Source: Capitulum mitella
Lineage: Eukaryota; Arthropoda; Thecostraca; Pollicipedomorpha; Pollicipedidae
Assembly (NCBI GenBank): GCA_030062745.1
Contig: CP099851.1
Location: 4,089,161-4,153,160, forward strand
Reading direction: 5' to 3'
DNA: 64,000 nt
Shown: positions 14,835 to 42,099 of the stretch, piece by piece
Layout: each line of letters starts with the position of its first letter
Numbering within the stretch: the first letter of the stretch is position 1
Program-made: the position numbers and the translations under genes
The notes under the pieces: model-generated
Told to the model about the DNA's origin: nothing
What the model saw: the letters and a program-made list of their open reading frames with translations, nothing else
Databases searched by the model: none

Positions 14835-14838
14835 TTAA

Positions 14839-18737: not shown

Positions 18738-19699
18738 ACTTGTGCACAGAGAGGCATACGGGTACGTACAATCATTAACGAAGCCATCTTATTCTCATTT
18801 TTTTCTAGTCCAGTGCCCGCCTTTCGGTCCCTGCCTTCCTTGGTTCGTCTCTGTTCATCTCTATCTAGAGGCAGTTTTTTTTAACGTTTTTGAAACTTCA
18901 AAGTCGGAGGGTGCCTCAAACTCAGCACCGTCGAATAATGTCATTTCAGCCGTAAACAGAATGAGGTGGTTTGGTTCGTAATCGGCAAAAACACGCAAAT
19001 GTCATGCAGAACTTTTATAGTTTCTCATATGAATCAACCCGAAAGAAATACGACCAAATTATCTTCTAAATTATGTACGGGATTGATCAAGGGACTTAGT
19101 GGCGCAGCAATGAAAGCAGTGACATTCTGAAACTGCGTAACGCCACAATCGTTTCCTATTTCAAGACTCGGCTTCCAAAACCTTGTGCTAGGCACGCAGC
19201 CATGTTTGTGGAGACAAAAAGATATGTTTACCCCATGTCTTTGGACGGGGGGTGCGCTTTTCTCCCGTTGTCCCTGCGCTTCCGCCGCCACTGATGGTAG
19301 GAACAAACTCCTTCTATCCGTTAGCAGCCAGTTTGTGGTCCGGCTGATCGGATGTTTCATCATCGAAGAAGCAAACTATGTCAAAGACTCCGACGCTGCG
19401 TGGCCGTAGGAGTTGGTGGGCGGGCCGCAAAACAAATTCTTTCTAAGGATAACCCAGGGCAAAAAGTTTTTTTGCGTTTTTTTCTCTGCATACCAATGTG
19501 CCTTTTCATCCGGACTATTCCTCATATTTACCAGCAACCTAAATGAGTTCAGTCTTCCGCATGCTCCACGTATTAGGATTAACTTCATAGGTGCAATTCG
19601 TAGGATATGCATGGCCTAAGAGTTGAGTCTATGAAACTTATCAGGTATTTAATTACCGTATTCCTTGTAGTGCTTTATTATCATTGCCAGGATCTCATT
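18738..19699. other. Intergenic, nothing recognised
   Basis: Unique-looking sequence up to the outer edge of the left palindrome arm. No gene or repeat terminus was found. Confidence 0.45.
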
Positions 19700-19910
19700 T
19701 ACGGGTTTCTCAAAAAGGTAGCAGAAACCCCGGAAATTTCTCATTATCATGATCTACCAAATGTTTTCTACAAAGATATCCCGGAGAGTAGAAACACCAC
19801 CGAAGTACCGTTCCGTATCATCCCACCCCCAGCGTTTCACATACCCCTGCCTTACTCCAAAAAGGTGTTGGAGCAACGGAGTGGAAGAAAGTGTACGCCA
19901 TACAATTTAA

Positions 19911-21116
19911 CCCGTCCCAGACTGGGGGGCAGTTGACTGCCCCCCTGAGGTTTTTCTGGGATTTGCAAGAGAACCAACAAAAACAGAGTCATGAAACGTC
20001 GTGTACCTTTTGCTCCATCAATTTTACATCTCGTGTCGAAATTTTGACTTCAGGTCAGGTCAGGTACCTGACCTAGGTCAGGTCAAACAGACCTATGTCC
20101 AGAAAAGTTTAGCGTCCTCTAACTTTTTCGCAAAATAAGATATCTCAATAATACTTTCAGGGATTAGTGATAGTGATGGATGCAACAAAGTTGCCATCTC
20201 AGATTTTTGGGAAATTTCCGGATCATTGACCTAAGGTCAAGACCATTTTTAAAACATGTCGCCGTTGTTTCGGAAAGTGACTGAATATTTCTTAGCATCT
20301 TTAGTGTGGAGTGAAGCAGACATTTAGTTACCGTCATTGGGCAAAGTATCAATGACTTCCAGCCATTAACTTGAGGTCAGGTCACGAATAACTGTAGTGA
20401 TCCGAAATGTACCACCGTCAAAATCGGCGATGAATTACTAAGAATGGGTAGAAAATGGCAGAACTAGCTTGCACAGACGTAAGTAATACCAGGAACCTCA
20501 AAAAGTTTGAAAAAGCAGCATGTTTTGAAAATAAAAAGGCTCTCGCGAATAAAGCTCCGCCAATTTTGTAGATTAGTAACTAATGAATTTTTCCAAAATT
20601 TAAACATGAGAAACCATCACAAGAACCACAAAGATGAATAAAATATGCATAGATTGTCTTTTTCGCGAAAATAAAGGAACGCTGAAACCAGTTCCCGTCA
20701 ATTTGGTACCGCATACGGCAGCGGCGCACTCCGACAGCTGGCGGGAGAATTACCTTGTCTTTAACTCAACGTTTCGACGTATGTGTTGAACAAATCTGGG
20801 GAAATTAGACGTGTATCGGCATCCGCGGACCTTTACTTGTGCGCTGGTGCCTTTACCTATGCGTTATTAGTCATAGCCCTTGAGATTCAGGCCGTTTCTC
20901 GGTCTCATGCAGTCGGCTATGAGAAAAAATATATACAGCGTAAATTGGCTTACATATTATCTAAAACTAAAAATGAGATCAGTTTCGTCACAAGCTTTCC
21001 AACGGTGTGCTTATTTTTATCGTGCGACCAACCGTTGGTGAGTTAGGGGGGGGGGCAGTCAACTGCCCCCCCCCCCAGTCGCCGATGTTCGAAACGGACC
21101 GACGGTCGTGCGCGGG
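19911..21116 (+). mobile_element. TTAA element family 2, complete copy (1206 bp)
   Basis: Flanked by TTAA (19907-19910 and 21117-21120). It begins CCCGTCCCAGACTGGGGGGC and ends CGTGCGCGGG. Like family 1 it has a G-run palindrome inside each end (GGGGGGCAGTTGACTGCCCC at left; a longer G9/C13 version at 21043-21076), but the sequence is different. The interior has AGGTCA/TGACCT clusters at 20050-20090 (partly palindromic around GGTACC), 20225-20245 and 20370-20385. No transposase. The matching site in the other palindrome arm (41883-41886) is empty, so this copy is private to the left arm. It ends about 575 bp before the GRP1 TATA box. Confidence 0.9.
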
Positions 21117-21690
21117 TTAATGTACAGAGATTAGAAGCGAACTGGCCTCCTTCTTTTCCGACTAGATATAAACTGTATTAGCAAAATTGCTATGTGCCAT
21201 TGTCCATTCCTACGAGCATGAATATGTAACAGACTAAGGCATCACTTTCATCGTGAATGCTTGCGGTACATGCCAGTTCTCTCTGTCGATGAATTACCAG
21301 CTCGGTCGCGGCAAACGGCATCAAATATTCAGCCAACGCACTTACATCGTGGTATCATCAAAAATTACTCAAACGCCCCGAAGCCTGGTGCAGGCTGCGG
21401 ATTTCCGCGCTGAACCCATTCACGAGCAGAAGCATGCCCACAACCAACGCCGGGCCCTCCTATGGCACCTGCGCCAAGAGCGAACAACGTCAGCGGCCGT
21501 GCCAGCAGCCAGCAGGCCGGCCGCGGCCCGCCTGGCCGTCTCCGGCCAGCGGCTACGCTGGGAAGCCCCAGCCGCCGGCGACGTGCCGCCAACCCGGAGC
21601 CGCCGGCGGCGGTGCTGCAGCGCCGAGCATCGCTTCATTCAGAGGTCGTGACGGGACGCAGGTGGCGGGAAGGCCGGCGGGTCAGCTCCG

Positions 21691-21799
21691 TATAAAGTGG
21701 CCCGCCGCACGGGGCAGGTGCATCCGACCGGCGGCAGCTGCAGCAGGAGCCAGGCGCGGTCTCTCGACAGCAGCGGCAGCAGCAGCGGCAGAGCGACAG
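21691..21799 (+). promoter_or_regulatory. GRP1 core promoter and 5' UTR exon
   Basis: A TATAAA box at 21691-21696 lies in a GC-rich promoter. A GCATCC initiator follows at 21720-21725, 29 bp downstream; the same hexamer occurs at the equivalent place in GRP3. The untranslated exon 1 would run from about 21722 to 21799, ending CGACAG before the donor GTGGGT. Intron 1 (21800-24521, ~2.7 kb) leads to the acceptor just before the ATG. The same arrangement is conserved in the other arm at 41313-41205. Confidence 0.65.
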
Positions 21800-24521
21800 G
21801 TGGGTGGTGACTGAAGAGACGGCAGCGCAGTGGACGACCTACTGTCGCTTCAGATCTGGGGCTGCGATAAATTTTAGCGGTTGAGCCATTCAGCGGCACA
21901 TTCATCTCACACGCAGCCTGTGTGATTAACGGCACTGATTGAAACCTCTCGCGGTGCGTTTAATAGGGAGCCTATGACGTGGTGGAATATGAAATTCATG
22001 CGGTAAGCGTTTAAATATTTGACGTTGCTTGGTTTAGCGTTTAATTTGCTATTGATTTTCTCCTCTTTTATAACCAGTAGTGTTGGAAGGGTTTGCCATG
22101 GAGTAAATATTCTTCAACTTTGTTTGATGTTTTTGAAGACAGAAACCTTTTGTCAGGAGATACCACAAATGTTAAATGTTAAAGAGAATAGCTCACCTTG
22201 GTGGTAATCCAAGAGATAATGTGCAATGACTAAACAGAGTACACAGATAACGACTCCGTTATGTTTATGTCATGAAACCCGATGAAAGTAAAAATGTTGA
22301 TAAAGAAACTATTCTACACCATGACACCATTCTCAGGAGAGACGTCTGACATAAAATGATGTGACATCATGATGCCAACTTTTACGGCAAACCAAGCATA
22401 TGCAAACAATGCGCTACAATGCGCTACAAAGGCAAATCGTACAACACCACATTTACAACGGCATCTGCATTGCACTGACATTTGCAACATTGCACTGACA
22501 AATACTCACGAAAAACGGTCCCCGTGGCATCACACACGTAACATTGCAGCTGCATAACTCGGGACTCAGTCCACCATTACTCCCACGAGGGGCAACCGTT
22601 TGCAACCGCAACGAAGTCAACACTCTTGTTCGAGGTTAGCCAAGGTCACCATTAGTACTGTGACGTCACCGTGCATCTGGCACTCACCCAAATCTGGCGC
22701 TTCCCTTCAGAATCGTGCACTTTATCTGTTCAAGCATCGTAAAGGAAGAGTTTTGAGGCAAACGAACTTTGGACCATATGATTTCTACATCTAAGCTACA
22801 CCCTGCTATCTCAGTTCATAACCCCATACAAGTGTGAACAGTTCCTTTAAAAGTGTGCTCGTTTATGCACTACTCGGGCAGCCACCGCGTTTTTCAACCA
22901 TTCCAAAAGGGGTCTGAAATCCCATAAAGCGCTCCTCGCATAAAAATTAGAGCCAAGACGAAATCAATGACTGGAAATCCTACGTGTTTCATCGGAAGCG
23001 AAACCGTTTTCGTCGTTTCTGTTGCGTGAGGATTTGTCATCCAGCATAAGCTTTCATCCTCGACGCTAACCGCGCCGAGGCCAGTCCCCGCTTACATGCG
23101 CACCACTTGGGACCAATGCAGGCTAACGCAGGACATCGATCTGGGGTCTCTCGGTCACGGACGCGAACTAGCCTTTGCGCGAAAGCCAATCCGTTTCCGT
23201 TCGGTACGGCAAGCTTTGCGCCCCTCGGCAGGCATCGGAAGCTGGCTTAAACTCCAAGTGCGGAGGGCTACCAGATGAGTTTTTGCCGCGAACCGAACGC
23301 TGGGGCTTCCATATGAACTGAGCTTAACTAGTGGCCAATTCATGTCAGTTTTTACTGGTCTTTCGCCAAATTAGGAAGAAGTGTTTAATTTCTTACTGCC
23401 ATCGCCCGACATTTGGTCCTTCCTTATGGCCATGGCCGACTATTTATGAGAATGGTGATTCGAGGGCTTACGAAACCCAGAAAATGTTTGCATATCATTA
23501 TGAGGTTTATGGTGGTTGAGTCTTCGATAAAAGGAAATGAAAGATCATTAATTATTCAAACGAGGGGTAATTCTAGACGTCATTCGCTCAACATCAGGCC
23601 ATAAACAATGTTTTTTTTCTTCCTTGGCCAGATATCAGCCGCTTTATGTTTCATCCCTCGTAAATAGCTAGCAGTCTGTCATCATTACGTCATATTTGAA
23701 CGTGGAGGATAACCTACACATACCAACACATACCACGGATACATGCTTCCTTTTGCAGTCGCCTTAAACCGATCTTTTTTCTGCGTAAGCCAGTGGCCGA
23801 TGATCAGAGAAGTCCAGGGTGACATCCTGTGCAGTGGCGTTATCAGAAGCCGATGAAAAGGCCAGATAGACTCGTCATTGTTAACACCAGCGTTGCGCCA
23901 GCTGTTGGCCAGTCCTCGGTTGATGTTATGCGCGGACCCGGAGTTGTAGTCTCCCAGGCCTTCACATGAGGCCCCAGGGACGAATGCAACTTTCATTTCA
24001 GTATTATTTTCGGCGCTGTCCCAGCATTTTTCTAGATCCACGCTGATGGTTGCGGCAGCACACAGCAATACAGACGGCATCTTACGGCATTGGGATGGCC
24101 AAGGTTGTCACCATTAGCAAAGACGAGAGGTTGGGGACGACGAAAGGTATCTTCCAAATGAGAAACGTTTGCGTTTTTTCACGCGTTTAAAGTTTTAAAC
24201 GGTTTGCTCCGGCTTGAAAAACAAAATCTGGAAAATTCGGATGCATGTTTTTACGAATGTAACACTGAAAGAATACAGCAACAAGTGAAAGTGGTGATGC
24301 AGATGCACAAAGAACATCCTCTGACGTCTAAATAACACCCTCCCTCCAGCCAACGGCGTTGCCATCCGCGCCAGAGGTGGCACTGCCGCCCGCTACAAGC
24401 CGGCCAGTTATGAATCTTGAGCGTCTGCAAACGACGGCTCACCACGCGGTTGCGCCACTGCGGCCGATTACCGGATCCCACGCCGTCCCCATTGACCGCT
24501 GGGCATTCCCCGCGCCCCCAG
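21800..24521 (+). other. GRP1 intron 1
   Basis: Begins GTGGGT and ends in a pyrimidine-rich tract with CCCCCAG directly before GCAGCCATG. The minus-strand 131-codon frame at 23685-24080 inside it is broken by indels in the duplicate arm (38955-39200), so it is not treated as a gene. No other feature is recognised. It is inferred from splice consensus and conservation in both arms. Confidence 0.6.
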
Positions 24522-24527
24522 GCAGCC

Positions 24528-26046
24528 ATGTTGCGGCTTCTCCTGCTCCTTGGCGTGGTCGCGTTGGTCAGCTGCGGCGGAGGGAATTACGGCGGCCGTC
24601 GGGCGGGACGATTCTCTGGAGGCCGGCGCCGCGGCCACTTTGGCGGCAACAGTGGCGGCTTCGGCGGAGGCGGCGGCGGCGGCGGTGGCTTCGGCTACGG
24701 CGGTGGCGGCGGCGGCGGAGGCGGCGGTGGCGGCGGCGGAGGATTCGGCTACGGCGGCGGCGGCGGCGGCGGCGGTTTCGGCATTGGAGGTGGAGGCAGC
24801 AGGGTCGTCGGCGGATTCGTGAGTGCGCTGCTCCCGTTGTACGATTTTTGTCTTGAGCCACGGGTTGGCGCAACGCTTGAAAGTGCTTGGATAAAAACTG
24901 CACTGGAACTGAAGCAAGACCTGCATGCTCCATCTTTGCACTTTACCGTAACCCTTCCCAGAATTTAACGCGGCACAAAACCTCCCTAGTTTTTGCATTG
25001 GACAGAAAAAGCGCCATGACCTGCCGATGGCCCAAAGTACATCGAAACGTTGACATGTATTTTCAATGATTTGGACGTCAACGTAAGGTCCTTAGTATGC
25101 TGTGCAGGAAAGGGATTCTCCTCCTGAGCGCCGAAGGGAGAAAAAGCCCTGCGTTTCACTCGAATCAGCTCCCGCTCCGCGAGCTCGTTTCAACGTCGGC
25201 ATCGCACTTCCGACAGGGAGGTCACCGAGGAGGGAGCCGGCGCGGCGGCGGCTACGGCGGCGGCTTCCAGCAGGCCGGCGGCCAAAGTACACTGATCGGC
25301 TCCGGTTTCATCGGTGGCGGATCGCACGGCGGCCAGGGCGGCTACGGCGGCGGGTCCCACGGCGGCGGGTTCTTCGGAGGTGGTGTTCTCGGCGGCGGAG
25401 GTGGTGGTGGTTTCGGCTACGGAGGCGGCGGCAAGGCCACCGGCAACGCCCAGGGCAACGTCATCTCGGCCCAGAACTCGAACGGACACGACGGCCTGAG
25501 CTCCATCAAGGTGGTCAGCGCATCGGCAGGGGTAAGCAGCGCGCTCTGCTGTGGTCTCGCACTGCTGTGGCCCCTGTTCCTGCCAGTGGCACATGTTGCG
25601 GGGAAGTCATTTGACTGTATCTGGCGATGGATAATCCCAAACCCACGTGCACTGGGCCTGAGGAGAGACCAGATATGCTCTCAGTCTCCGTCTTTTAACC
25701 TCCGCCCTGTAGTGTCTACTATCCGAGAGTTTTTTTTTTTTTACTTTAGAGCATCATCGTCTACATTTTTAGGTTGTTATTCCATTTTTCATTGTCATGT
25801 AGTGAGAATGACTACGCAAAATACTCACTTTTCTGTTCCGCGTGCTTTTTGACAACGAACTTCAGAGATGACGTCAGGGCGACAGCGCCACGTCACAGGC
25901 TGCGTCGTTTACAGGGCTCCGCGTCCAACGGCGGCTCCAGCTTCAACAACGCGCACGCCACCAACGCCGAGCTGGGCGGCCTGTTCGGCTCCGGGTCGTT
26001 CTCCAACTCCGGCGCGACCTCCAACCAGTACGGCGGCCACCACTAG
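24528..26046 (+). CDS. GRP1: secreted glycine-rich protein, three coding exons
   Basis: A predicted 245-residue protein. Coding pieces are 24528-24818 (97 codons), 25217-25531 (105) and 25915-26046 (43 plus TAG). Donors are GTGAGT at 24819 and GTAAGC at 25532; acceptors are CGACAG before 25217 and TTTACAG before 25915. All introns are phase 0. The ATG sits in GCAGCCATG six bases after an acceptor. The signal peptide is MLRLLLLLGVVALVSCG, with the only early cysteine at its end. The rest is mostly Gly with Phe/Tyr in GGFGYGG repeats, then a conserved block (GNVISAQNSNGHDGLSSIKV) and a last exon starting Gly-Ser-Ala-Ser. The composition suggests an extracellular structural protein (cuticle, cement or silk-like). 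That role is inference, and no named family is recognised. No AATAAA is obvious downstream; AATACA near 26187 is a possible weak signal. Confidence 0.85.
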
Positions 26047-27438
26047 CACGGCTGAGGCCGATAGCGGGCCGGCCGGCGGCAGGCCCATCTAATCGGTGCC
26101 CCGCGGACGGGCAGGCCGGTCCTGTCGTGCCGCCGAGGCCGCGGCTCCACCGCAAAGTCCTCCGCGAGTGACCGGATTCCATGAATACAATCAAACCGTT
26201 CACATCGCCCGCTTATGCATGCATGACAACGTCGAATGTTTGGTACATGAAATATACATGAACTTACGTGATCAAATTGTCCGACGACCAAACCCCAGGG
26301 GACCAACTAAAGTAGTCTGGGTACTTTCTTTTATGCTAGCCTTGATGCGTTCCATCTGGTTTACGACATGATGACATTAAGCACGAGAGACTCGTTCGTA
26401 AAGCAATTTGAAAGCATCGAGGCAAAATTGTTATGTAGCGTGCAGTGCAGTCTTCATGTCCCAATGCAAGAACAGCGGCCGCTCATTAGAGTTCAACAGA
26501 CAGAATGTGTAATTTGAGCGTTCCGTTGTTTCATCTGCCATCTTTGTTCCCTGCAGCAGCATTCTTATTTATCGGAGCGGCAAACTTGTCCGCGCTTTCA
26601 GCCAACCACAACAATATCGCAGAAGCTTAATTAAATTGCCCGGAGTAATTTTAAAACAATCTGAACACTGTCCACCAGATAAAGTTCTCAGTGATAATCT
26701 ACAATTTCGAAACCAAAGCATGGATTCGCTGATACAAGAAAATTTCCAACGACATGGTGCAGAATTAACCCCAGCCAGGCGGGCATACGGACTGTTTGTT
26801 CTCAGCCATGAATTCATCCGATTCGTTCTCCTAAGATCTTTGAGAACCAAAGGTGCCGCAAAAAACTGGAAAAACACCGACGGAAAGATTTTGGTAACGC
26901 CAGCAGAAAGCATGATATTTTGTAAGCAAGCCAATATTGAGGTCATCAGGGATTATCTTAGATCATATTATATGCGGAGAACTTTGGCGGATACCTTGTC
27001 AAGTTTAAAAGGTCAATGGTTTTTTCAAGGTAAGTAAGGTCACTCACTTTATATGGAATGAAATCGTTTTCAGTAATGGAAACTATTTCACGCTTCTCGA
27101 TGATCACTTCTCTATTCCGTGATAATAAGGCATATTTTGGGGAAGTAACAGCGTTGCAAGATTGCAATAATATTTCGCCCTTCATTTATCTGACCTTGAA
27201 CCAGAGGAAACGACAATTATTGGCTTCGACGAGTGAACAATTTGAAAACAAATTCCGTATGAGAACGTAGTTTGAAGGACGTTTTGCCGTGAATCTGCTA
27301 CGCTGACGGCGGAGACTTCAAACGATGAACAGCATCTTTCGCTGTGAACAGAGTGTGCTTACCAGGTGCCGTGAAGGAGGAAAGCAGGCAACATTCTCAT
27401 CAGAAAAAACGTACGGCCCTTTCGTTTTTGCTTCATTG

Positions 27439-27480
<42 letters not shown>

Positions 27481-28017
27481 CTCTCCCTCTCTCTCTCTCT
27501 CTCTGTCTATCTATCTACCTATCTCGTATGGGGCTGCGGCGGACATCCAGCCGGCCGGCCGTTTGCTGGGGCAGCGACTCCGGCGAGCCGGCCGCTCCGG
27601 GCTGTCATGTTAACCCTATGGGCGCGTTTATTTCTCATGCAAAAAAGTCACGTTCGGGATGGTCTTGTTCATTTCTTTCTTAACATTTGGTTTTGCCCAT
27701 GCCCTCAGTTTGTTGCCTGATTCATGGCCTTTTATTTCAGTCAGCAAATATTGTCATCCCTATGTTGCATTTCGGTGGGATTTGGCGATTTATGAGTTGC
27801 GAACAAGGTATTTTACTATACCTTCAACATGGGGAAATTTCTGCTTCGTCTTTCAGGTTGTCTGATGCGACACGTAACCATGAGAAGCCTTAGCCCATGG
27901 ATGGAGCTTGTAGCTCGGTTATTTTTCTACCAAATAGATGGGATTTGTCGCCGATTTGACGTTGGGAATTGGCAAAATGCATTGCCATACCTTGCACCGT
28001 GCACGAGAAGGTTCATT
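26047..28017. other. Left arm downstream of GRP1
   Basis: The GRP1 3' flank, then non-coding sequence mirrored in the right arm. It includes the empty TTAA site at 27005-27008, which is filled in the other arm, and a (CT)n tract. The 133-codon frame at 26636-27037 is shifted and interrupted in the other arm and is not called. Confidence 0.5.
27440..27525. repeat. (CT)n microsatellite in left arm
   Basis: CT dinucleotides with CTTT and CTAT interruptions. The mirror tract in the right arm (34256-34322) is shorter and more degenerate, as expected for independently drifting copies. Confidence 0.9.
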
Positions 28018-29133
28018 GTTTCGTCGCCAGGCGTCGCTAGCTGTACGGTTCGGCCGATGTTATGTCAGGTGATCATGGGCGCGTTCAGAGAGTATTATGT
28101 GCGGCGGGATGCGTCCAGTCTGATATTCTGAACTCGTTAGAAGGTGCACAATTCCTCAACCTTTTCGTTGCGATGACAGGCATCGTCAATGGGAAGTGGA
28201 GCCCGGAGGACCACGACCCATGCCTGGACCCTTTCGTCCCCTCCCCCTGGCGGCAGCGGCGACCTCCATCACTTGCTATGCGTTTGGACCTGTTGCATGT
28301 GGTCCACTCCAAGCCAGCCCCTTGCCCACCCGTTCCTTTCTCAGTCGCTGCTTTCCCCTTGTATTTATATTTATATTTCAACAGAATAAATCAAATTATA
28401 ATAGTGCGATCAGCTGCTGTTTAGGCCTCCAAGAAACAGAAGGGACAGACACGCGACCTATTTTTTTTAATAACATGCCAACATTTCCATTCCATTTAAC
28501 TGAGTATGTACACTCCTGGTTGGGTGGGCTTTCTCAAAGCTTGTGTCTGTTATACGGGCGACGACTCAGAAATGGTTGCCTGGGCCAAAACATCTGAGGA
28601 GCCACGGGTCCTGTTTCTATGTCACTCTGACACCCTACGCATACACAACAGTGACTGATTCTTAATCGTGGCTCAGGTGCCACGCTGGCTGGTTCGGCGT
28701 CCCTGGTTCCGGAAGAGGAGGAAGAGGGGGCTGGAGGCGACGCGCGTTTTTGTACGTACGGTGATTAATGACCGACTAGGTATGTGGGAGGGGCCACCCC
28801 GCGGAGAGCGGGGAAACTCGGAAGAGGACTTGGAGTGGACCACATGCAACAGGTCCGAACGCATGGCAAGTGATGGAGGTCGCCGCTGCCGCCAGGGGGG
28901 AGGGGGCGAAAGGGTCCAGGCATGGGTCGTGGTCCTCCGGACCCCACTTCCCATTGACGATGCCTGTCATCGCAACGAAAAGGTTGAGGAATTGTGCACC
29001 TGATAACGAGCTCAGAATATCAAATTGGACGCACCCCGCCGCACGTAATACTCCCTGAACGCGCCCATGATAACCTGACATGACCTGAGCTGAACCGTAC
29101 AGCTAGCGACGCCTGGCGACGAAAAAAGCTCTG
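28018..29133. mobile_element. Foldback-like element with ~300-bp inverted termini (left arm)
   Basis: The segment 28018-28312 reappears inverted at 28829-29133. Both start from the outer end TTTCGTCGCCAGGCGTCGCT and are about 95% identical by eye. The unique middle (~515 bp) contains an A/T-rich stretch with AATAAA near 28384. Long inverted termini without coding capacity fit a foldback-type transposon. No target-site duplication is obvious. The large palindrome gives a second copy at 32637-33751, so four copies of the terminus lie in the window. Confidence 0.65.
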
Positions 29134-29545
29134 TCCGCAGAAACACGCACATCAGTGCACGAAAGGTGATTGGTTACGAGCGAAACGTTAGCACGAACGC
29201 ACGAGTACAAGCAACCAGCCGATGTGACCGCAAGAGGCGTTAGCAGGCGCGGCGCTATTATAGCCGGAGCGCGAGTCATGGCGCAGCCGGAACGCAGTCA
29301 CACCCCGCGCAGAGGCAGGCACAGAGGGTTGGCAAATGAAGCAGCCGCCAGAGCCGCAGCCGCAACGGAAGCAACAGGAACAGCACACTCCCGTCCGCCC
29401 AGACGGAGCAGCAGAGGAGACAGGGCAGGCCGCGGCAGGGAAGCAGCAGGTGCAGCGGCCGTCGCGACCGCAGGAGCAGCGGTTGCCGGCCAGCAGAGCC
29501 GCGCCGGTCGCCACTCGTCCGCCGACGAGGGTCATCCTGCCACCG
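29134..29545. other. Innermost left arm, GC-rich
   Basis: About 410 bp mirrored at 32225-32640. It is open in several frames because of its composition. In one frame it runs into the Ty3/gypsy pol fragment, but its inverted copy on the other side shows that it belongs to the palindrome arm rather than to the retroelement. Confidence 0.55.
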
Positions 29546-32224
29546 AGTCATCCTGTCATGCGTAAAGAGGAAGGATGGTACTCTCCGCTGCTGCGTCGAT
29601 TACCGGGCCCTCGATCTTGCCACTGTTAAGGACTCATACCCTCTGCCTCGCACTGACGACACTTTGGATGGACTATCTGGAGCTCGCTGGTTCTCCACGC
29701 TAAATCTTAAGTCTGGCTACCATCAGATCAGAGTGGCCAAGGAAGATCGTCCTAAAGCAGCGTTCTATGCCGGTAACGGGCTCTGGCAGTTTCGTGTTCC
29801 GTTCTTTGGACTGTGCAACGCGCCTGCAACGTTTGAACGTCCCATGGAAGCTGTGCTGTCTGGTCAACACTGGAAATCTCTCCTCGTCTGTCTGGATGAC
29901 GTCATAGTGTTCGGTCGCGCGTTCGAGGTGGAGATGCGTCATATGGAGGAGGTTTTCTTACGGTTCCGTTCCTCAAATCTCAAACTTAATCCCAAGAAGT
30001 GTCATCTCTTTTGCAAAGAAGTCTGCTATCTCGGCCACATCGTTTGGCACGGAGGCGTCAGGACAGATCCGACCAAGGTCGCAGCCATCTTGGATGGGCC
30101 CACTCCGATGTGCAAAATGCAGCTGCAAAGTTTTTTAGGCCTCTGCACCTATTACCGGAAGTTTGTAAGGAGTTCTGCTTCGATTGCTGCCTCACTCCAC
30201 GCTCTGACGAAAAAGGACTGCAAGTTCATGTGGGACCAGAGCTGTGAGGAATCGTTCCAGCATCTGAAGCAGACCATTGCGTCTTCGACTGTTCTTCTCT
30301 TCCCGGACACGTCAAATCCTCGACATTGACGCTAGTCGGTGCGGCATCGGCGCTGTCCTCTCTCAAGAAATGGATGATACGGAGCGCGTCGTCGCATTCT
30401 ACAGCAGGTCCCTCTCCCACCCAAAAAGGAACTATTGCACTATCCGACGAGAACTACTGGCCATCGATGGTTCCGTCAGGCACTTCCATCACTTTCTTTA
30501 CGGCTCGAAGTTCACAATCCGCACGGATCATGCCGCTTTGCCGCGGCTGAAGCACCCTAAGGATCCTGAAGGGCAGTTAGCACGGTGGTTGGCAAGATTG
30601 GAACAGCATGACTATACTATCCTGTACAGACCTGGTGGACGGCGCCAGAACGCAGACGGGCTGTGTCGGCGTCCTTGTCGACTTGACTGCCCACTCTGCT
30701 GCCGGAAAGAAGAAGCAGCAGGACGTTGTTGTATGGCCACAACCAGAACTCAGGCTAGGGCGATCAAGGATTCTCCTCCTCCGCCCGCTGAGCAAGAGGA
30801 ATCGGCTGAGCAGATACCGCAGCCATCTTCGTTGCTGTCAGGCCCAGGTAAAACGTTCTCATCTGCAGATTTGTTGAGCGACCAGCTGCCGATGTCTCTT
30901 CGAGTGGCGCAACTACAGGACCCTGATATGTCCACTCTGTTGTCTTTTTTGCAGGAAACCGGTGGAAGACCTGGATGGGACGGGGTGAGGGGTTTCAGCC
31001 TTGTGTTGAAACAGTACTGGGCACAGTGGGATGCATTACGCTTTCATCATGAAACCCTCCAGCGTCGTTGGGAATCTGCTGATGGTTCATCTGAGAGGTG
31101 GCTGACGGTGGTGCCTCGTGGCTTGAGGAAAGCCGTGCTGGCTGGATGTCGTGGATCTGTCACGAGTGGGCACTGGTACCAAGAAAACCCTGCAGCGCAT
31201 CCGGCAGCGTTTTTACTGGATCGGCATGCGGAATGACATGAAGGAGTGGTGCCGAACATGCGATACCTGCTCAGTGAAGAAGGACCCAGCGTCAAAGCCG
31301 TGTGTCCTTCTGCAGATCTGCGCCGTTGGGGCGCGAATGGAGCGCGTCGCTGTGTATGTTGCGGGTCCTTTGCCGTTGTCGTCGTCCGGCAACAGGTATA
31401 TAGTGGTGGCCATGGACTACTTCACTAAATGGTCGGAGGCGTATGCTGTTCCAAACCAGGAAGCCTTCACCATTGCGAAAGTTCTTGTCGACAACTTCTT
31501 TTCCCGTTTTGCGTCCCAAACGAATTGCACTCAGATCAGGGCCGCAATTTCGAGAGCCACGTGTTCAAGGAATGTTGCCTGCTCTTAGGTATCCGTAAGA
31601 CTCGAACAATGCCACTACACCCTGAGTCCGACGGTATGGTGGAAAGATTTAACCGGGCTCTCAGCCAGGAGCTGGCGAAACTTTGCAGGCATGGTCAGGA
31701 GGACTAGGATCAGAAACTGTCGACTGTTCTCATGGCGTATCGCTCGGCGGAGCACGAGACAACCGGGTACACCCCAGCCATGCTTATGCTGGGACGGGAA
31801 CTCCGACTACCGGTCTGGACCGGCCTTCTGAAGAAGCGCCTCGTCACTTTACGACTGGGTATGCCATGGCTCTCCGAGACCGCCTGACTGATGTTCAACA
31901 CAGAGTGCGTGACCGCTTGGCGGCGTCTTCCCAAACGATGAAGCTGAGAATGGACGTCAAGCCTTCCCTCACTGTTTTCGAACCAAGCGACGAAGTGTGG
32001 CTGTACAATCCACGAAGAAAGAAGGGTCAGAGCCCGAAGCTCATGTCTCGCTGGGAGGGGCCACACATGATCAAAAAGCGACTCTCTGGTGTCACGTACC
32101 GCATCAGTCGGAACAGTAGATCTGACGCAAAAGTGGTCCATTAACCGCTTATGGAAAGTTACTGGTCTGCCTCGTTTCATCTGGTCCACTTCACCCTGCG
32201 GATCGGACCCTGCTTCCGTGGCAG
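29546..32224 (+). mobile_element. Ty3/gypsy pol fragment forming the palindrome spacer
   Basis: Reverse transcriptase, RNase H and integrase segments in the canonical Ty3/gypsy order on the + strand. There is no gag, protease, primer-binding site or LTR. The fragment starts near the N-terminal edge of RT and stops after the integrase C-terminal (GPY/F-like) region, where the inverted arm sequence begins. It is the only part of 19.7-42.1 kb with no inverted partner, so it is either the spacer captured when the palindrome formed or a later insertion at its centre. Confidence 0.9.
29560..32190 (+). pseudogene. Ty3/gypsy pol remnant (RT, RNase H, integrase)
   Basis: RT: a KDSYPLPRTDDTLDGL block (~29630), FSTLNLKSGYHQI, FGLCNAPATFER and the catalytic LVCLDDVIVFG; longest piece 29664-30329. 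RNase H (~30317-30700): DIDASRCGIGAVLSQ, RRELLAI and RTDHAAL supply the acidic residues. Integrase (31150-32190): RFYWIGMRNDMKEWCRTCDTC carries the zinc-finger cysteines, LHSDQGRNFES and MVERFNR the second and third acidic residues, and a WEGPHMIKKRLSGVTY tail. The first catalytic Asp of integrase is absent (the segment reads VAVYVAGPL). Frameshifts occur near 29590, 30320, 31180 and 31530, with stops near 31706 and 31888. It is non-functional. Confidence 0.9.
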
Positions 32225-32636
32225 GATGACCGTCGGCGGACGACGACGACTGGCGACCTGCGCGGCTCTGCTGGCCGGCACCCGCTGCTCTGCCATCGCG
32301 ACGGCCGCTGCACCTGCTGCTACCCTGCCGCGGCCTGCCCTGTCTCCTCTGCTGCTCCGTCTGGACGGACGGGAGTGTGCTGTTCCTATTGCTTCCGTTG
32401 CGGCTGCGGCTCCGGCGGCTGCTTCATTTGCCAACCCGCTGTGCCTGCCTCTGCGCGGGGTTGGACTGCGTTCCGGCTGCGCCATGACTCGCGCTCCGGC
32501 TACAATGACGCCGCACCCGCTAACGCCTCCTGCGGTCGCATCGGCTGGCTGCTTGTACTCGTGCGTTCGTGCTAACGTTTTGCTCGTAACTAGTCACCGT
32601 TCGTGCACTGATGTACGTGTTTCTGCGGACAGAGTT

Positions 32637-33751
32637 TTTTTCGTCGCCAGGCGTCGCTAGCTGTACGGTTCGGCCCATGTTATGTCAGGTGGTCATGGGC
32701 GCGTTCAGGGAGTATTATGTGTGGCGGGATGCGTCCAATCTGACATTCTGAACTCGTTATCAGGTGCGCAATGTCTGAACCTTTTCGTTGCCATGACGGG
32801 CATCGCCAATGGGAAGTGGGGTCCGGAGGGCCATGACCCATGCCTGGACCCTTTCGTCCCCTCCCCCTGGCGGCAGCGGCGACCTCCATCACTTGCCATG
32901 CGTTCGGACCCGTTGCATGTGGTCCACTCCAAGTCCTCTTCCGAGTTTCCCCGCTCTCCGCGGGGTGCCCCCTCCCACATACCTAGTCGGTCATTAATCA
33001 CCGTACGTACAAAAACGCGCGTCGCCTCCAGCCCCTCTTCCTCCTCTTCCGGAACCAGGGATGCCGAACCAGCCAGCGTGGCACCTGAGCCACGATTAAG
33101 AATCAGTCAATGTTGTATATGCGTAGGGTGTCACAGTGACATAGAAACAACACCCATGGGGCCTCAGGTGTTTTGGCCCAGGCAACCATTTCTGAGTCGT
33201 CGCCCGTATAATCGACGCAAGCTTTGAGAAAACCCACCCAACCAGAAGTTTACGTACACAGTTGAATGGAAGGGAGATGCTGGCATGTTATTAAAAAAAA
33301 AGAAATTAAGTCGCGTGTCTGTCCCTTCTGTTTCTTGGAGGCCTAAACAGCAGCTGATCTCACCATTATAATTTGATTTATTCTGTTAAAATATAAATAT
33401 AAATATAAGGGGAAAGCGGCGACTAAGAAAGGAACGGGTGGGCAAGGGGCTGACCTGGAGTGAACCACATGCAACAGGTCCGAACGCATGGCAAGTGATG
33501 GAGGTCCCCGATGCCGCCAGGGGGAGGGGGCCAAACGGTCCAGGCATGGGTCGTGGTCCTCCGGACCCCACTTTCCATTGACGATGCCCGTCATGGCAAC
33601 GAAAAGGTTCAGACATTGCGCACCTGCTAACGAGTTCAGAATATCAGATTGGACGCATCCCGCCGCACATAATACTCCCTGAACGCGCCCATGATCACCT
33701 GACATAACATGGGCCGAACCGTACAGCTAGCGACGCCTGGCGACGAAACGA
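32637..33751. mobile_element. Foldback-like element with ~300-bp inverted termini (right arm)
   Basis: The mirror copy of 28018-29133. Its termini, 32637-32945 and ~33455-33751, are inverted copies of each other. The outer ends read TTTCGTCGCCAGGCGTCG and its complement. The middle contains the same AATAAA-like A/T-rich stretch, inverted (~33375-33410). Confidence 0.65.
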
Positions 33752-34255
33752 TGAACCTTCTCGGGCATGATGCAAGGTGTGGCTATGCATCTTGCCAATT
33801 CCCACCGGGATGCCAATGTCAAATCGGCGACAAATCCCACCTATTCGGTAGAAAAATAACCGAGCTACAAGCTCCACCCATGGGCAAAGGCTTCCGATGG
33901 GTACGTGTCGCATCAGACAACCTGAAAGACGAAGCAGAAATTTGCCCCTGTTGAAGGTATAGGAAAATATCTTCTTCGCAACTCATAAATCGCCAAATCC
34001 CACCGAGATGCAACATAGGGATGACAATATTTGCTGACCGAAGTAAAAGGCCATGAATCAGGCAACAAACTGAGGGCATGGGCAAAATGAAATGTTAAGA
34101 AAAAAATGAACAAGACCCGAACGTGACTTTTTTACATGAGAAATAAACGTGCCCGCAGGGTTAACATGACGACCCGGAGCGGCCGGCCCGCCGGAGTCTC
34201 TGCCCCTGCGAGCGGCCGGCCGGCTGGATGTCCGCCGCAGCCCCATACGAGATAG

Positions 34256-34322
34256 ACGAATAGATAGATGGGTAGATACATAGGTAGAGAGAGGGAGAGA
34301 AGGAAAGAGAGGGAGAGAGAGC
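34256..34322. repeat. Degenerate (GA)n tract in right arm
   Basis: AGAGAGAGGGAGAGA-type purine repeat plus TAGATAGATGGGTAGATA, the inverted counterpart of the (CT)n tract at 27440. Confidence 0.85.
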
Positions 34323-34756
34323 AATGAAACAAAAACGAAAGGGTCGTACGTTTTTTCTGATCAGAATGATGCCTGCTTTCCTCCTTCATGGCACCTGATA
34401 AGCACACTTTGTTCACACCAAAAGATGCTGTTTACTATTTGACGTCTCCGCCGTCAGCGTAGTAGATTTACGGAAAAACGTCCTTCAAACTACGCTTTTA
34501 TGTAGAATTTACTTCCAAATTCTTCACCCGTCGAAGCCAATAATTGCCTTTTCCTCTGGTTCCAGGTCAGGTAAATGAAGGGCGAAATATTATTGCAAAC
34601 TTACAACGCTGTAGCTTCACCAAAATATGCCTTATTATCACGCAATAGAGTAGTGATCATCGAGAAGCGTGAAATAGTTTCCATTACCGAAAACGATTTC
34701 AGGCCATATAAGGTGAGTGACCTCACTTGACTTTGAAAAGACCATTCATCTTTTAA

Positions 34757-35957
34757 CCCTATTCCCGGAGGGCTAGACGGTATGGTCGATTCCCGGCAGG
34801 GGGGACGGATTCGCCCCTCCCCTGCATCTCGAGAACTACACATCCGATTTCATCGCAACAAACAGCAATCGATTTCACACGAAGAGAGCTACATTTTGAT
34901 AAAAAAGATCAAAATTTTGAAAGGTGTGGATACAGGGCGCGAAAATCTCAAAATCGGGGGTATCTTTGGACTTTTTATAACTCCGTTGTTCATGGACCGA
35001 TTTCGATGAAACTGGCATGAATCGAGAGATTATGGATAGGACTTTTATCACTGATACACATATCTGAAATTTTGAGAAAATTCATGGGCGTTCTCAGGGT
35101 TTTAAAAATAGGAGGATTAGTCTTCTAACAACTGAATAAACAAAAGGGCCAAAAACATTTTTTTGGCTTCTGTTAGTCATGTTATGCTAAAGGAGTACAA
35201 ATCGCATTACAATGTTTGTATAATGTTAGCCTAGGCGATGCCAGGGACATGAAAAAGGAGAAACTGTCATGGTCATACGTCCTTAAGATCAACTCGTTAC
35301 CTTTGACCTTAAATGACCTCCAGTGACCTTGGAGTCACTTGGAATGATCTCATGTGCATTTAATATTATCTGTAAACGTTTTCGATCATTTGAATTTACT
35401 CTATTTCAAAAATTTCATTTTATTGCTATTACGATGTAGGGTACGCACACTAACGTTTTAGGTGATATCTCCGTGACCCGACCTGATATTAAGCTGAAAC
35501 TTGATACGCAAGTAGAGGGCACCGTTCTACGTCATATGTATTCCGGGTTGGGCATTTGAAAAAACGGCGCCGAAATTATTGAAAAAAATAAATTCTGGCT
35601 TTTGGCCTTGATCTGACCTTGTAAAGTGACCTCAGACTAACAAAATTACATCTGCACATTGCCCAACTCTTTAGCTAGACATCCATATAAAGTTTTAAGT
35701 TCTATCTTAAAAACTCTGTTTTTGGCAGACATTTTCCTTTTACCCTCAACATGGCCAAAAGTGGTCTGAGGTGTCTTCGAAAAACGTTGCCTGGGTCCGC
35801 CCCTGAACAAAATAGAATTTTGAAATTTTCTCACTCCACGCAGAAGGAATAGCTAGGAAAAGTCACCAAGTTTCGTGAAGCTGCGTTAAAAAGCATGGAA
35901 TTGGCAAGCAAAAAAAACCGGAGGGGGGCGGATTCAGCCCCCCTGCCGGGAATAGGG
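34757..35957 (-). mobile_element. TTAA element family 1, complete copy private to the right arm (1201 bp)
   Basis: Flanked by TTAA (34753-34756 and 35958-35961). Removing the element and one TTAA restores a sequence matching the left arm at 26990-27030, where a single TTAA (27005-27008) marks the empty site. This directly proves the 4-bp TTAA duplication and shows the element inserted after, or was lost since, the arms duplicated. Its orientation is opposite to the 14839 copy. Confidence 0.95.
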
Positions 35958-36947
35958 TTAAGCTTGACAAGGTTTCCGCCCAAGTTCTCCGCATACAATA
36001 TGATCTAACATAATCCCTTGTGACCTCAATACTGACTTGCTTACGAAGTATCGTGCTTTCTGCTAGCGTTACCAAAGTCTTTCCGTCGGTGTTTTTCCCT
36101 CTTTTTTGCGGCACCTTTGGTTCTCAAAGATCTTAAGAGAGGGGATCGGATGAATTCATGGCTTAGAACAATCCTTAGGCCCGTCCGGCTGGGGTTCAAT
36201 CTGCACCACGTCGTTGGAAATTCTCTTGTATTAACGAATCCATGCTTTCGTTTCAAAACTGTAGATAATAACTGGGAACTTTATCTGGTGAACAGTCTTC
36301 AGATTGTTTTAAAATTACTCCGACCAATGTAATTTAACCACTGCGATACTGTTGTGGTTTGCTGAAAGCGCGGACGAGTTTGCTGCTCCGATAAATGAGA
36401 CAATGCTGCTGTAGAGAACAAAGGTGGTGTGCGTACCTAACAATGGCTGAAAAATTTGCAGATACATCCTTCTTAGCAGATTAAAAACAACGGAACGTGC
36501 AAAATACGCATTCTGTCTGTTGAACCCTAATGAACCGCTTTTCTTGCATTGGAACATGAAGATTGCACTGCACGCTACATAACAATTTTGCCTCGATGCT
36601 TTCAAATTGCTTTACGAAGGAGTCTCTCGGGCTTAATGTCATCATGTCATAAACCAGATGGAACGCATCAAGGCTAGCATAAAAGAAAGTACCCAGACTA
36701 CTTTAGTTGGTCCCCTGGGTTTGGTCGTCGGACAATTTGATCACGTAAGTTCATGTATATTTCATGTACCAAACATTCGACGTTGTCATGCATGCATAAG
36801 CGGGCGATGTGAACGGTTTGATTGTATTCATGGAATCCGGTCTTGCGCGGAGGACTTTGCGGTGAAGCCGCGGCCTCGGCGGCACGACAGGAGCGGCCTG
36901 CCCGTCCGCGGGGCAGCGATCAGATGGGCCTGCCGCCGGCCGGCCCG

Positions 36948-38507
36948 CTATCGGCCTCCGCCGCCCCAGTGGTGGCCGCCGTACTGGTTGGAGGTCGCGC
37001 CGGAGTTGGAGAACGACCCGGAGCCGAGCAGGCCGCCCAGCTCGGCGTTGGTGGCGTGCGCGCTGTTGGAGCTGGAGCCGCCGTTGGACGCGGAGCCCTG
37101 TAAACGACGCGGCCTGTGACGTGGCGCTGTGGCTCTGACGTCATCTCTGAAGTTCGTTGTCAAAAAGCTCGGGGGGACAGAAAAGTGAGTATTTTGCATA
37201 GTCATTCTCACTAAATGACTACAAAAAATAGAATAAAAACCTGAAAATGTCGACGATGGTGCTTTAAAGAAGTAAAAAAAGAAAACTCTCGGATAGTAGA
37301 CACTAGAGGGCGAAGGTTAAAAGACGGGGACTGCGAGCATATTTGGTCCCCCCTCAGGCTCAGTGCACGTGGGTTTGGGATTATCCATCGCCAAATGCAG
37401 TCAAATGGCTCCTCCGCAAAATGTGTCATTAGCAGGAGCAGGGACCGCGTCTGAGACCGCAGCAGGGCGCGCTGCTTACCCCTGCCGAGGCGCTGACCAC
37501 CTTGATGGAGCTCAGGCCGCCGTGTCCATTCGAGTTCTGGGCCGAGATGACGTTGCCCTGGGCGTTGCCGGTGGCCTTGCCGCCGCCTCCGTAGCCGAAA
37601 CCACCACCACCTCCGCCGCCAAGGAGACCACCTCCGAAGAACCCGCCGCCGTGGGACCCGCCGCCGTAGCCGCCCTGGCCGCCGTGCGATCCGCCACCGA
37701 TGAAACCGGAGCCGATTAATGTACTTTGGCCGCCGGCCTGCTGGAAGCCGCCGCCGTAGCCGCCGCCGCGCCGGCTTCCTCCTCGGTGACCTCCCTGTCG
37801 GAAGTGCGATGCCGACGTTGAAACGAGCTCGCGGAGCGGGAGCTGATTCGAGTGAAGTGCAGGGCTTTTTCTCCCTCCGGCACTGAAGAGGATGTGAACA
37901 GGAGAATCCCTTACCTCCTCAGCACACACAGGACCTTACGTTGATGTCTGAATCATTGAAAATACGCGCACCGTAGCGATGTACTTTGGGCCATCGGCAT
38001 GTCATAACATTTTTTCCGCCCGATGCAAAAACTAAGGTTTGTACCACGTTAAATTCTGAAGAGGACTAGGTTAAAGTGCGAAGATTGTGCATACAGGCCT
38101 GGCTTTAATTTCAGTGCGGTTTTTACCCAAGCACTTTCAAGCGTTGCGCCATCCCGCGGCTCAGGACAAAAATCATACAGCGGGAGCAGCGCACTCACGA
38201 ATCCGCCGACGATCCTGCTGCCTCCACCTCCAATGCCGAAACCGCCGCCGCCGCCGCCGTAGCCGAATCCTCCGCCGCCGCCACCGCCATAACCGAGGCC
38301 TCCGCCACCGCCGCCTCCGCCGCCGCCGCCACCGCCGTAGCCGAAGCCACCGCCGCCGCCGCCGCCTCCGCCGAAGCCGCCACTGTTGCCGCCAAAGTGG
38401 CCGCGGCGCCGGCCTCCGGAGAATCGTCCCCTCCGGCGGCCGCCGTAATTCCCTCCGCCGCAGCTGACCAAAGCGACCACGCCCAGGAGCAGGAGAAGCC
38501 GCAACAT
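36948..38507 (-). CDS. GRP2: secreted glycine-rich protein, inverted duplicate of GRP1
   Basis: A predicted 257-residue protein. Coding pieces, descending, are 38507-38199 (103 codons), 37794-37480 (105) and 37097-36948 (49 plus TAG). The splice sites match GRP1 (GTGAGT, GTAAGC; CGACAG, TTTACAG) and introns are phase 0. The signal peptide MLRLLLLLGVVALVSCG is identical to GRP1. Differences from GRP1: six more residues in the Gly/Tyr repeats of the first coding exon, a few substitutions (Asp to Gly in the GH.GL block, Val to Leu before the second Gly run), and loss of the GRP1 stop, because the TAG after His-His reads TGG here, so translation adds six residues (WGGGGR) before the next TAG. All exons are open, so the copy may be functional. 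The role is inferred only from composition. Confidence 0.83.
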
Positions 38508-38513
38508 GGCTGC

Positions 38514-41204
38514 CTGGGGGCGCGGGGAGTGCCCATCGGTCAATGGGGACGGCGTGGGATCCGGTAATCGGCCGCAGTGGCGCGACCGCGTGGTGAGCCG
38601 TCGTTTGCGACGCTCAAGACTCATAATTGGCCGGCGTCTAGAGGGCGGTAGTGCCACCTTCTGGCGCGGATGGCAAAGCCGTTGGCTGGAGGGAGGGTGT
38701 TGTTTAGACGTCAGAGGATGTTCTTTGTGCATTTGCATCATCACTTTCACTTGTTGCTGTATTCGTTGAGCGTTACATTCGTTAAAATGTGCATCTGAAT
38801 CTTCCACAATTAATTTTCAGGCCGGAGCAAACCGTTTAAAACTGTAAAACGCGTGAAAAAAACGCAAACGTTTCTCATTTGGAAGATATATTTTCAACCT
38901 TTCAACCTCTCGTCTTTGCTAATGATGACAATCCCGGCCATCCCACTGCTGTAAGATGCCGTCTGCGTTGCTGTGTGCTGCCGCAACCATCACGCATGGA
39001 TCTAGAAAAATGCTGGACAGCGCCGAAAATAATACCGAAATAAAAGTTGCGTTCCTCCACGGGGACGTCATGTCAAAGCCTGGGAGACTACAACTCCTGG
39101 ACGGCGCATAACATCAACCGAGGACTGGCCAACAGCTGGCGCAACGCTGGTGTTAAACATGACAACGAATGTGACTAGCGTTTTCGTCGGCATTCGATAA
39201 CGCCACAACACAAGATGTCTCTCTACGCTTCTCTGATCATCGGCCACTGGCTTACGCAGAGAAAGATCGGTTCAAGGCGACTGCACAAGGAGCATGTATC
39301 CGTGGTGTGTGTTGGTGTGTAGGTTATCTTGCACATGCACGTATGACGTAATGATAACAGACTGCTAGCTATTTACTAGTGATGAAACATAAAGCGGCCT
39401 GATATCTGGCCAAGTTAGAAAGAAAAACATTGTTTATGGCCTGATGTTGAGCGAATGACGTCTAGAATTACCTCTCGTTTGAATAACTAATGATCTTTCA
39501 TTTCCTTTTATCGAAGACTCAAACATCACAGAACTCATAACGATATGCAAACATTTTCCGGGTTTCGTAAGTCCTCGAGTAAGTTCTAATAAACACTGGG
39601 CCATGGCCATAAGGGAAGACTAAATGTCGGGCGATGACAGTAAGAAATTGAACACTCCTTCCTAATCTGGCGAAAGACCAGTAAACACTGACATGAATTG
39701 GCCACTAGTTAAGCTCAGTTCATATGGAAGCCCCAGCGTTCGGTTCGCGGCAGAAACTCATCTGGTAGCCCTCCGCACTTGGAGCTTAAACCAGCTTCCG
39801 ATGCCTGCCGAGGCGCGCTAAGCTTGCCGTGCCGAACGGAAATGGATCGACTGCAACGGAAACGTCAGTTTACGTCCCTGACTAAGAGACCCCTGAATCA
39901 ATGTCCTGCGTTAGCCTGTACTGGTCCCAAGTGGTCCGCATGTGAAGCGGGGACTGGCCGCGGCGCGGTTAGAGTCGAGAATGAACGCTTATGCTGGATG
40001 ACAAATCCTCACGCAACAGAAACGACGAAAACGGTTTCGCTTCCGATGAAACACGCAGGATTTCCAGTCATTGATTTTGTCGTGGTTGTAATTTATACGC
40101 GAGGAGCGCTTTATGGGATTTAAGACCTCTTAGGATGGCTGATATACGCGTAGTGCTGCCCGAGTGGTGCATAAACGAGCACACTTTTAAAGGAACTGTT
40201 CACGCTTGTATGGTGTTATGAACTGAGATAGCAGTGTTGTAGCTTAGGTGTAGAAATCATATGGTCCAAAGTTCGTTTGCCTCAAAACTCTTCCTTTACA
40301 ATGCTGAGACAGATTAAGTGAACGATTCTGAAGGGAAGCGCCAGATTTGGGTGAGTGCCAGATGCACGGTGACGTCACAGTACTAATGGTGACCTTGGCT
40401 AACCTCGAACAAGAGTGTTGACTTCGTTGCGGTTGCAAGCGGTTGCCCCTCGTGGGAGTAATGGTGGCCTGAGTCCCGAGTCATGCGGTTGCAATGTTAC
40501 GTGTGTGATGCCACGGGGACTGTTTTTCGTATTTGTCAGTGCAATGCAGATGCCGTTGTCAATGTAATGCTGCACGATTTGCCTTTGTAGCGCATCGTTC
40601 GCCTATACTTGGTTCACCGTAAATGCTGGCGGCGTGATGTCACATCATTTTATGAGTGGCGTCTCTCCTAAAAATGGTGTCATGGTGTTGAATAGTTTCA
40701 TTATCAACATTTTTACATTTGTCGGGTTTCATGACAAAAACATAACGGAATCGTTATCTGTATACTCTGTTTAGTCATTGCACATTATCTCTTGGATTAC
40801 CACCAAGGTGAACTATCCCCTTTAACATTTAACATTTGTGGTATCGCTTCACAAAAGGTTCCTGTCCTCAGAAACATCGAACAAAGCTGCAGAATATTTA
40901 CGCCGTGGCAAACTGCTCCAGCACTGCTGGTTATGAAGGAGGATAAAATCAATAGCAAATTAAACGCTAAACCAAGCAACGTCAAATATTTAAACGCTCA
41001 CCGCATGAATTTCATATTCCACCACGTCATAGGATCCCTATTAAACGCACCGCGAGAGGTTTCAATCAGTGCCGTTAATCACACAGGCTGCGTGTGAGAT
41101 GAATGTGCCGCTGAATGGCCCAACCGCTAAAATTTATCCCAGCCCCAGATCTGAATCGACAGCAGGTCGTCCACTGCGCTGCCGTCTCCTCTGTCGCCAC
41201 CCAC
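38514..41204 (-). other. GRP2 intron 1
   Basis: Counterpart of GRP1 intron 1. The donor GTGGGT (41204-41199) and CCCCCAG acceptor (38515-38514) are conserved. No gene is recognised inside; frames present here differ from those in the other arm by indels. Confidence 0.6.
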
Positions 41205-41313
41205 CTGTCGCTCTGTCGCTGCTGCTGCCGCTGCTGTCGAGAGACCGCGCCTGGCTCCTGCTGCAGCTGCCGCCGGTCGGATGCACCTGTCCCGTGCGGC
41301 GGGCCACTTTATA
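41205..41313 (-). promoter_or_regulatory. GRP2 core promoter and 5' UTR exon
   Basis: TATAAA on the minus strand at 41313-41308, GCATCC initiator at 41284-41279 (29 bp), and an untranslated exon about 41282-41205 ending CGACAG before the GTGGGT donor. This is the same layout as GRP1. The family 2 TTAA element upstream of GRP1 is absent here. Confidence 0.63.
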
Positions 41314-42099
41314 CGGAGCTGACCCGCCGGCCTTCCCGCCACCTGCGTCCCGTCACGACTTCTGAATGAAGCAGCGCTTGGCGCTGCAGCACCGCCGCCG
41401 GCGGCTCCGGGTTGGCGGCACGTCGCCGGCGGCTGGGGCTTCCCAGCGTAGCCGCTGGCCGGAGACGGCCAGGCGGGCCGCGGCCGGCCTGCTGGCTGCT
41501 GGCACGGCCGCTGACGTTGTTCGCTCTTGGCGCAGGTGCCAAAGGAGGGCCCGGCGTTCGTTGTGGGCGTTCTTCTGCTCGTGAATAGGTTCAGCGTGAA
41601 CATCCGCAGCCTACACCAGGCTTCGCGCGTTGCAGTAATTTTTGATGACAGCACGATGTAAGTGCGTTGGCTGAATATTGGATGCTGTTTGCCGCGACCG
41701 AGCTGGTAATTCATCGACAGAGAGAACTGGCTTGTACCGCAAGCATTCGCGATGAACGTGATGCCTTAGTCTGTTATATATTCATGCTGGTAAGAACGGA
41801 CAATGGCACATAGCAATTTTGTTAATGCAGTTTATATCTAGTAGGAGAAGAACGGGGCCAATTCGCTTCTAGTCTCTGTTTGTCAAATTGTATGGCGTGC
41901 ACTTCCGTCGTTCCAACACCTTTCCGGAGTTAGGCAGGTGCATGCAAAACGGTGGGGATGGGATGAGATGGAGCGGTACTTCGATGGTATTTCTAGTCTC
42001 CGGGATATTTTCGGAGAAAATATTTTGTAGATCATGATAATGAGAAATATCCGGGAATATCTGCTACATTGTCGGGAAACCCCGGACACGAAGCTTGAA

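Follow-up and report, generated by a model that had tools for sequence, protein, structure and literature searches.

Inverted duplications that carry genes are already known in animals. Palindromic collinear blocks of this kind are described, in the passages that treat them, for the springtail Folsomia candida and the rotifer Adineta vaga (PMC5490193, PMC7953838), and both reports cite the palindromes of human and ape Y chromosomes, in which inverted arms with genes flank a spacer. A reverse copy beside its original, with short homology at the joint, is also the outcome of fold-back, template switching or microhomology-mediated break-induced replication as set out in parts of PMC2621351 and PMC11724301. 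Here we describe a locus with these properties in Capitulum mitella (assembly GCA_030062745.1, contig CP099851.1), where two inverted arms, each with one glycine-rich protein gene (GRP1 and GRP2), lie on either side of a retroelement fragment. The stretch analysed, referred to as the window (64,000 nt, contig positions 4,089,161–4,153,160 of the forward strand), was compared with itself by self-BLAST and alignment, with matches of at least 80 columns listed. We consider it likely that the locus arose long ago by inverted (tail-to-tail) segmental duplication, in the neighbourhood of a related glycine-rich gene.

Four collinear inverted blocks, with identities of 83–91% by block, pair 19703–29546 with 42082–32215 (Table 1). 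A chance origin of the matches is ruled out, with E 0 for both large blocks. By arithmetic, and leaving aside the private insertion that each contains, arm A is ~8.6 kb and arm B ~8.7 kb long. The arms are thus two reverse-complementary copies of more than 1 kb in one sequence, at an overall identity of ~90%, as expected of a segmental duplication. No inverted partner for the spacer between them (2,668 bp) appeared in the self-comparison. Homology ends at 19703 and 42082, the window running on for a further 19.7 kb and 21.9 kb, and the only listed matches between the outer flanks are pieces of a 1.2-kb repeat family. A preliminary description of this DNA had proposed inverted arms of ~8.6 kb around an unpaired 2.7-kb spacer; the comparison of the window with itself confirms the arrangement. 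With 705 of the 8,327 aligned sites differing and a large spacer, the palindrome is imperfect, not near-perfect.

Each arm carries the same gene model, read by eye from the sequence together with the signal peptide: a TATA box, a 5′-untranslated region (5′-UTR) exon and three coding exons, all with intact GT/AG sites. The genes converge, GRP1 on the + strand and GRP2 on the − strand, with their coding ends ~10.9 kb apart, and the earlier impression of one intact-looking, TATA-bearing gene per arm holds; reading frames and splice sites are kept in both. Within the coding parts, the two genes differ by an in-frame 18-bp indel in coding exon 1 and at the stop codon (Table 1). Their glycine-rich product is probably secreted. 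The whole GRP1 protein had no Pfam match at E 0.5 and its tail had no PDB match at E 1, so that at these thresholds GRP1 joins no named glycine-rich protein family with a curated model. It does have a third paralogue in the window, GRP3: the GRP1 and GRP3 tails share 29 of 66 residues (BLASTP E 2e-10), a score reached by none of 5,000 shuffles. The one-base frame change of GRP3, at about 60943 (−) in a glycine-rich run, marks either a pseudogene or a sequencing error.

The homology between the arms has two large breaks because each arm holds one private insertion of ~1.2 kb. Besides TTAA at both ends, both insertions have inverted CCC/GGG ends, and each faces a single site in the other arm, which for the arm A insertion reads TTGA. 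In these TTAA and CCC/GGG ends they resemble piggyBac-type non-autonomous elements. In arm B the insertion is one of a 1.2-kb repeat family present elsewhere in the window; the six long copies of this family are 84–97% alike (96.6% for those at 14835 and 49854); four of the six have TTAACCCTATTCCCGG inverted ends on both sides. The presence of a private insertion in each arm, together with homology that ends within the window on both sides, indicates that the arms have had separate histories.

Two open frames touch these insertions and repeats. One, of 110 codons from stop to stop (19604–19936, +), may encode a signal peptide; it spans the outer boundary of arm A and terminates within that arm's private insertion. 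Its arm B counterpart is mostly open, lacks a start and has a one-base frame change. The other encodes a reverse transcriptase (45414–46145, −; RVT_1 8.7e-28), which we take to be of the type without long terminal repeats (non-LTR), and enters the end, at 46065, of a 1.2-kb repeat copy that lacks TTAA on this side.

The spacer is a broken pol fragment, with Pfam matches to RVT_1 (1.1e-22), RT_RNaseH (2.2e-29), Integrase_H2C2 (7.9e-13) and Integrase_p58_C (2.5e-6). The order reverse transcriptase, RNase H, integrase is that of Ty3/Gypsy elements, and also of BEL/Pao elements and retroviruses; the spacer has this Ty3/Gypsy-type order, although the Pfam names themselves do not say Gypsy. It is not a whole pol between direct LTRs, as no flanking direct repeats appeared in the self-comparison; gag was given no search of its own. 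The reverse transcriptase is cut at the arm A joint, its match starting at 29565, just beyond. Across this joint a 9-bp sequence is repeated (Table 1), against a background in which 311 of 63,900 positions start a 9-mer that recurs within 25 bp. At the other end of the spacer, the frame that follows the end of the integrase meets a stop 13 bp into arm B (32227), and this points to the joint with arm B as native. We take the joint with arm A to be the newer, a product of template switching. For the inner arm ends (28016–29546 and 32215–33748), as possible LTR sequence of the spacer element, no polypurine tract or primer site was recognised by eye, and the four open reading frames there (28041–28421, 29170–29562, 29191–29547 and 32145–32657) had no Pfam match at E 0.5.

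Under an inverted duplication, ~8.6 kb with one complete gene would have been copied in reverse beside a retroelement fragment, now the 2.7-kb spacer, in one copying event. Break-induced replication or template switching is the probable mechanism, and the short homology where arm A meets pol would be what it left behind. The arms would afterwards have diverged mostly independently, while purifying selection kept the coding parts and probably also the promoter and the 3′ end. Judged from their sequences, both genes are probably functional, and could supply more of one structural protein or slightly different forms of it.

Counted per site and by class, the arms differ at 30 of 738 coding sites, at 15 of 462 sites in promoter and UTR stretches and at 660 of 7,127 other non-coding sites (~9%); for the introns, divergence is 9.3, 13.7 and 11.3%. 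Exons are more alike than introns, as had been noticed at the outset, when either selection or conversion was put forward as acting on the coding parts. With the glycine-repeat block around the indel dropped (18 codons in GRP1, 24 in GRP2), synonymous divergence (dS) between GRP1 and GRP2 was 0.061, non-synonymous divergence (dN) 0.016 and dN/dS 0.27 (bootstrap 0.08–0.76); with the block kept, dS was 0.081 and dN 0.025, and 11 of 169 fourfold degenerate sites differed. Without the block, non-glycine fourfold sites differ as often (6 of 58) as non-coding DNA (p = 0.65), and glycine fourfold sites differ only once in 97 (p = 0.002 against non-coding DNA; p = 0.011 against the non-glycine sites). 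Conversion of whole exons would clean glycine and non-glycine sites alike. With the non-glycine sites as divergent as non-coding DNA, arm-to-arm conversion is not needed; selection, for which the dN/dS speaks, would suffice for the greater likeness of the coding parts. In glycine-poor surroundings, under a split made after the data had been seen, glycine fourfold sites differ at 1 of 49 and non-glycine ones at 5 of 56. Because glycine-rich stretches hold just two non-glycine fourfold sites, constraint on glycine codons and a tract effect are inseparable, and glycine-wobble constraint as the cause of the fourfold deficit is a lead only.

Several points weigh against a duplication whose arms diverged independently under constraint. 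The upper bootstrap value of dN/dS, 0.76, is no proof that both copies are constrained. Taken together, fourfold sites differ less often (7 of 155) than non-coding DNA (p = 0.047) and than introns 1 and 2 (p = 0.003). Non-coding divergence is patchy, with a dispersion of 2.58 in 100-site bins that none of 2,000 permutations reached, and the longest identical non-coding runs, of 162 and 117 sites, exceed the 95% point of permutations (96). Which arm is the copy stays two-sided: the frame stopping at 32227 and the 110-codon frame point opposite ways, since the latter, being without a start and frame-changed in arm B, would imply that arm A came first. The linkage across the spacer, moreover, is that of the assembly, and misjoins are likely in a retroelement. 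Low fourfold divergence and patchiness, with identical runs of up to 193 bp, would be expected if the palindrome evolved partly in concert through arm-to-arm gene conversion, its exons, promoter and 3′ end being converted patches. We think this unlikely, as divergence is no lower at the non-glycine fourfold sites than in non-coding DNA, identity between the arms is far from complete, and the promoter and the 3′ end contain or adjoin two of the three longest runs, which selection would explain equally well. Regulatory constraint or short conversion tracts would each produce the patchiness which, taken with the low overall fourfold divergence, means that short arm-to-arm tracts may have occurred. 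A more specific version, in which short tracts pass between the divergent arms and persist only at promoter, exons and 3′ end, letting just the working parts of the two genes co-evolve while introns drift, seems to us slightly less probable again.

Assembly error has to be weighed with equal care, because two paralogous loci or two haplotypes might have been joined tail to tail via a multi-copy retroelement, and the spacer is a retroelement fragment. Retroelements are a common place for assembly misjoins. The authors of PMC7953838 state, where they discuss their own palindrome list, that it includes misassembly false positives. Yet a fold-back or a haplotype join should extend the homology outward, whereas here it stops inside the window on both sides, and an amplification or missing-adapter chimera, in which near identity is expected, fits poorly with the private insertions and the ~9% divergence. 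On this sequence evidence a fold-back or haplotype artefact appears unlikely, and to a misjoin of any kind we give the same low probability as to arms in concert; the artefact worry raised in the preliminary description is weakened, not removed. The long inverted arms and the integrase domains between them could also belong to a single mobile element of large size, in which an integrase gene lies between terminal inverted repeats of 8.6 kb. This is highly improbable: the pol is a truncated, broken retroelement fragment, the arms carry a host-like gene with introns, and no target-site duplication was seen by eye at 19703/42082. An inverted segmental duplication is the explanation that we favour over all of these.

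Table 1 Features of the probable inverted duplication and related sequences (window coordinates)
Feature	Position	Strand	Remarks
Arm A of inverted duplication	19703–29546	+	~8.6 kb minus private insertion; self-BLAST, alignment
Arm B, inverted copy of arm A	32215–42082	−	~8.7 kb minus private insertion; self-BLAST, alignment
Inverted block 1	19703–19883 / 42082–41900		83.1% identity
Inverted block 2	21124–26531 / 41879–36485		90.4% over 5,460 columns, E 0
Inverted block 3	26538–27008 / 36427–35958		87.1% identity
Inverted block 4	27005–29546 / 34756–32215		90.5% over 2,563 columns, E 0
Spacer, broken retroelement pol fragment	29547–32214	+	Reverse transcriptase, RNase H, integrase; frame changes and stops
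Arm A/pol joint	29531–29555	+	GTCATCCTG (9 bp) repeated 16 bp apart across joint
GRP1 TATAAA	21691–21696	+	Alignment; identical in arm B
GRP1 5′-UTR exon	21720–21799	+	Start approximate; GT donor after 21799; inferred from sequence
GRP1 coding exon 1	24528–24818	+	Signal-peptide-like start, glycine-rich block
GRP1 coding exon 2	25217–25531	+	
GRP1 coding exon 3 with stop	25915–26046	+	
GRP2 TATAAA	41308–41313	−	
GRP2 coding exon 1	38199–38507	−	18 bp longer than that of GRP1
GRP2 coding exon 2	37480–37794	−	
GRP2 coding exon 3	36948–37097	−	GRP1 stop codon lost; six extra residues to next stop
Private insertion, arm A	19907–21120		Ends in TTAA on both sides (TTAACCCG...CGGGTTAA); one unoccupied site, TTGA, in arm B
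Private insertion, arm B	34753–35961		Ends in TTAA on both sides (TTAACCCT...AGGGTTAA); one TTAA in arm A
~1.2-kb repeats, long copies (n = 6)	14833–16054, 17434–18647, 34753–35961, 46065–47268, 47348–48430, 49854–51079		
~1.2-kb repeats, partial copies	1–780, 12126–12365, 43207–43365		
Identical run, 193 bp	26170–26363		
Identical run, 162 bp	21463–21624		
Identical run, 117 bp	22600–22716		Inside intron
Outer X, arm A	28016–28313	+	Partner 28829–29124
Inner X, arm A	28829–29124	−	
Inner X, arm B	32639–32935	+	
Outer X, arm B	33452–33748	−	
GRP3, third paralogue (promoter to stop, by-eye model)	60106–62742	−	Own TATA; one-base frame change in first coding exon
Orphan promoter-like stretch with TATA	42091–42243	−	80.6% to GRP3 promoter (62588–62742); ends 8 bp from arm B outer end
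Possible decayed paralogue, early stop	58057–58400	+	Weak match, E 1.4e-4, low-complexity filter off

Near the inner end of each arm, a pair of ~297-bp inverted repeats (X) lies ~515 bp apart (28016–29127; 32639–33748). Among the four X copies, the six sites that group copies by arm all fall within 31 bp, as 2 of 200,000 permutations do; this supports one conversion tract, within an arm, between X copies. Outside the converted patch the six pairwise distances are alike (16–19 differences), which makes the inverted X pair about as old as the arms, and the X repeats are a possible trigger of the duplication. Elsewhere in the window we saw a weak reverse transcriptase match below the Pfam cut-off (8587–9336, −; RVT_1 3.4e-5), presumably Penelope-like, and direct repeats in steps of about 34 bp (2017–2670) with open frames on both strands, the longest of 260 codons on the − strand.

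Palindromes of this size had been described as rarely kept stable, a concern that does not apply here. According to passages of PMC10164571, inverted repeats in double-stranded DNA are less unstable when they are far apart or diverged, but in long single-stranded DNA rearrangement still occurs between repeats separated by 30 kb or with as little as 75% identity. With 9% divergence and a 2.7-kb spacer, both large, strong hairpin instability is not expected in ordinary double-stranded DNA, and no special protection or mechanism for keeping large palindromes stable is called for. The locus offers a tidy example of an inverted duplication of a structural-protein gene, in which the artefact often suspected for such palindromes is made less likely by an insertion private to each arm and by separate divergence, and a codon-level comparison helps to separate selection from conversion.

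Set beside the systems described above, the arms read as an ordinary inverted gene duplication and not as an unusually stable palindrome. The F. candida and A. vaga reports counted blocks of at least five genes, as stated in part of PMC7953838, whereas here there is one gene model per arm; for F. candida, a passage of PMC5490193 has the authors setting concerted evolution aside because of a wide range of synonymous divergence (Ks). The arms of Y-chromosome palindromes are kept near-identical by frequent conversion, in contrast to the many sites that differ here. And, compared with the cases treated in the relevant parts of PMC2621351 and PMC11724301, the mechanism at this locus is read from one old joint.

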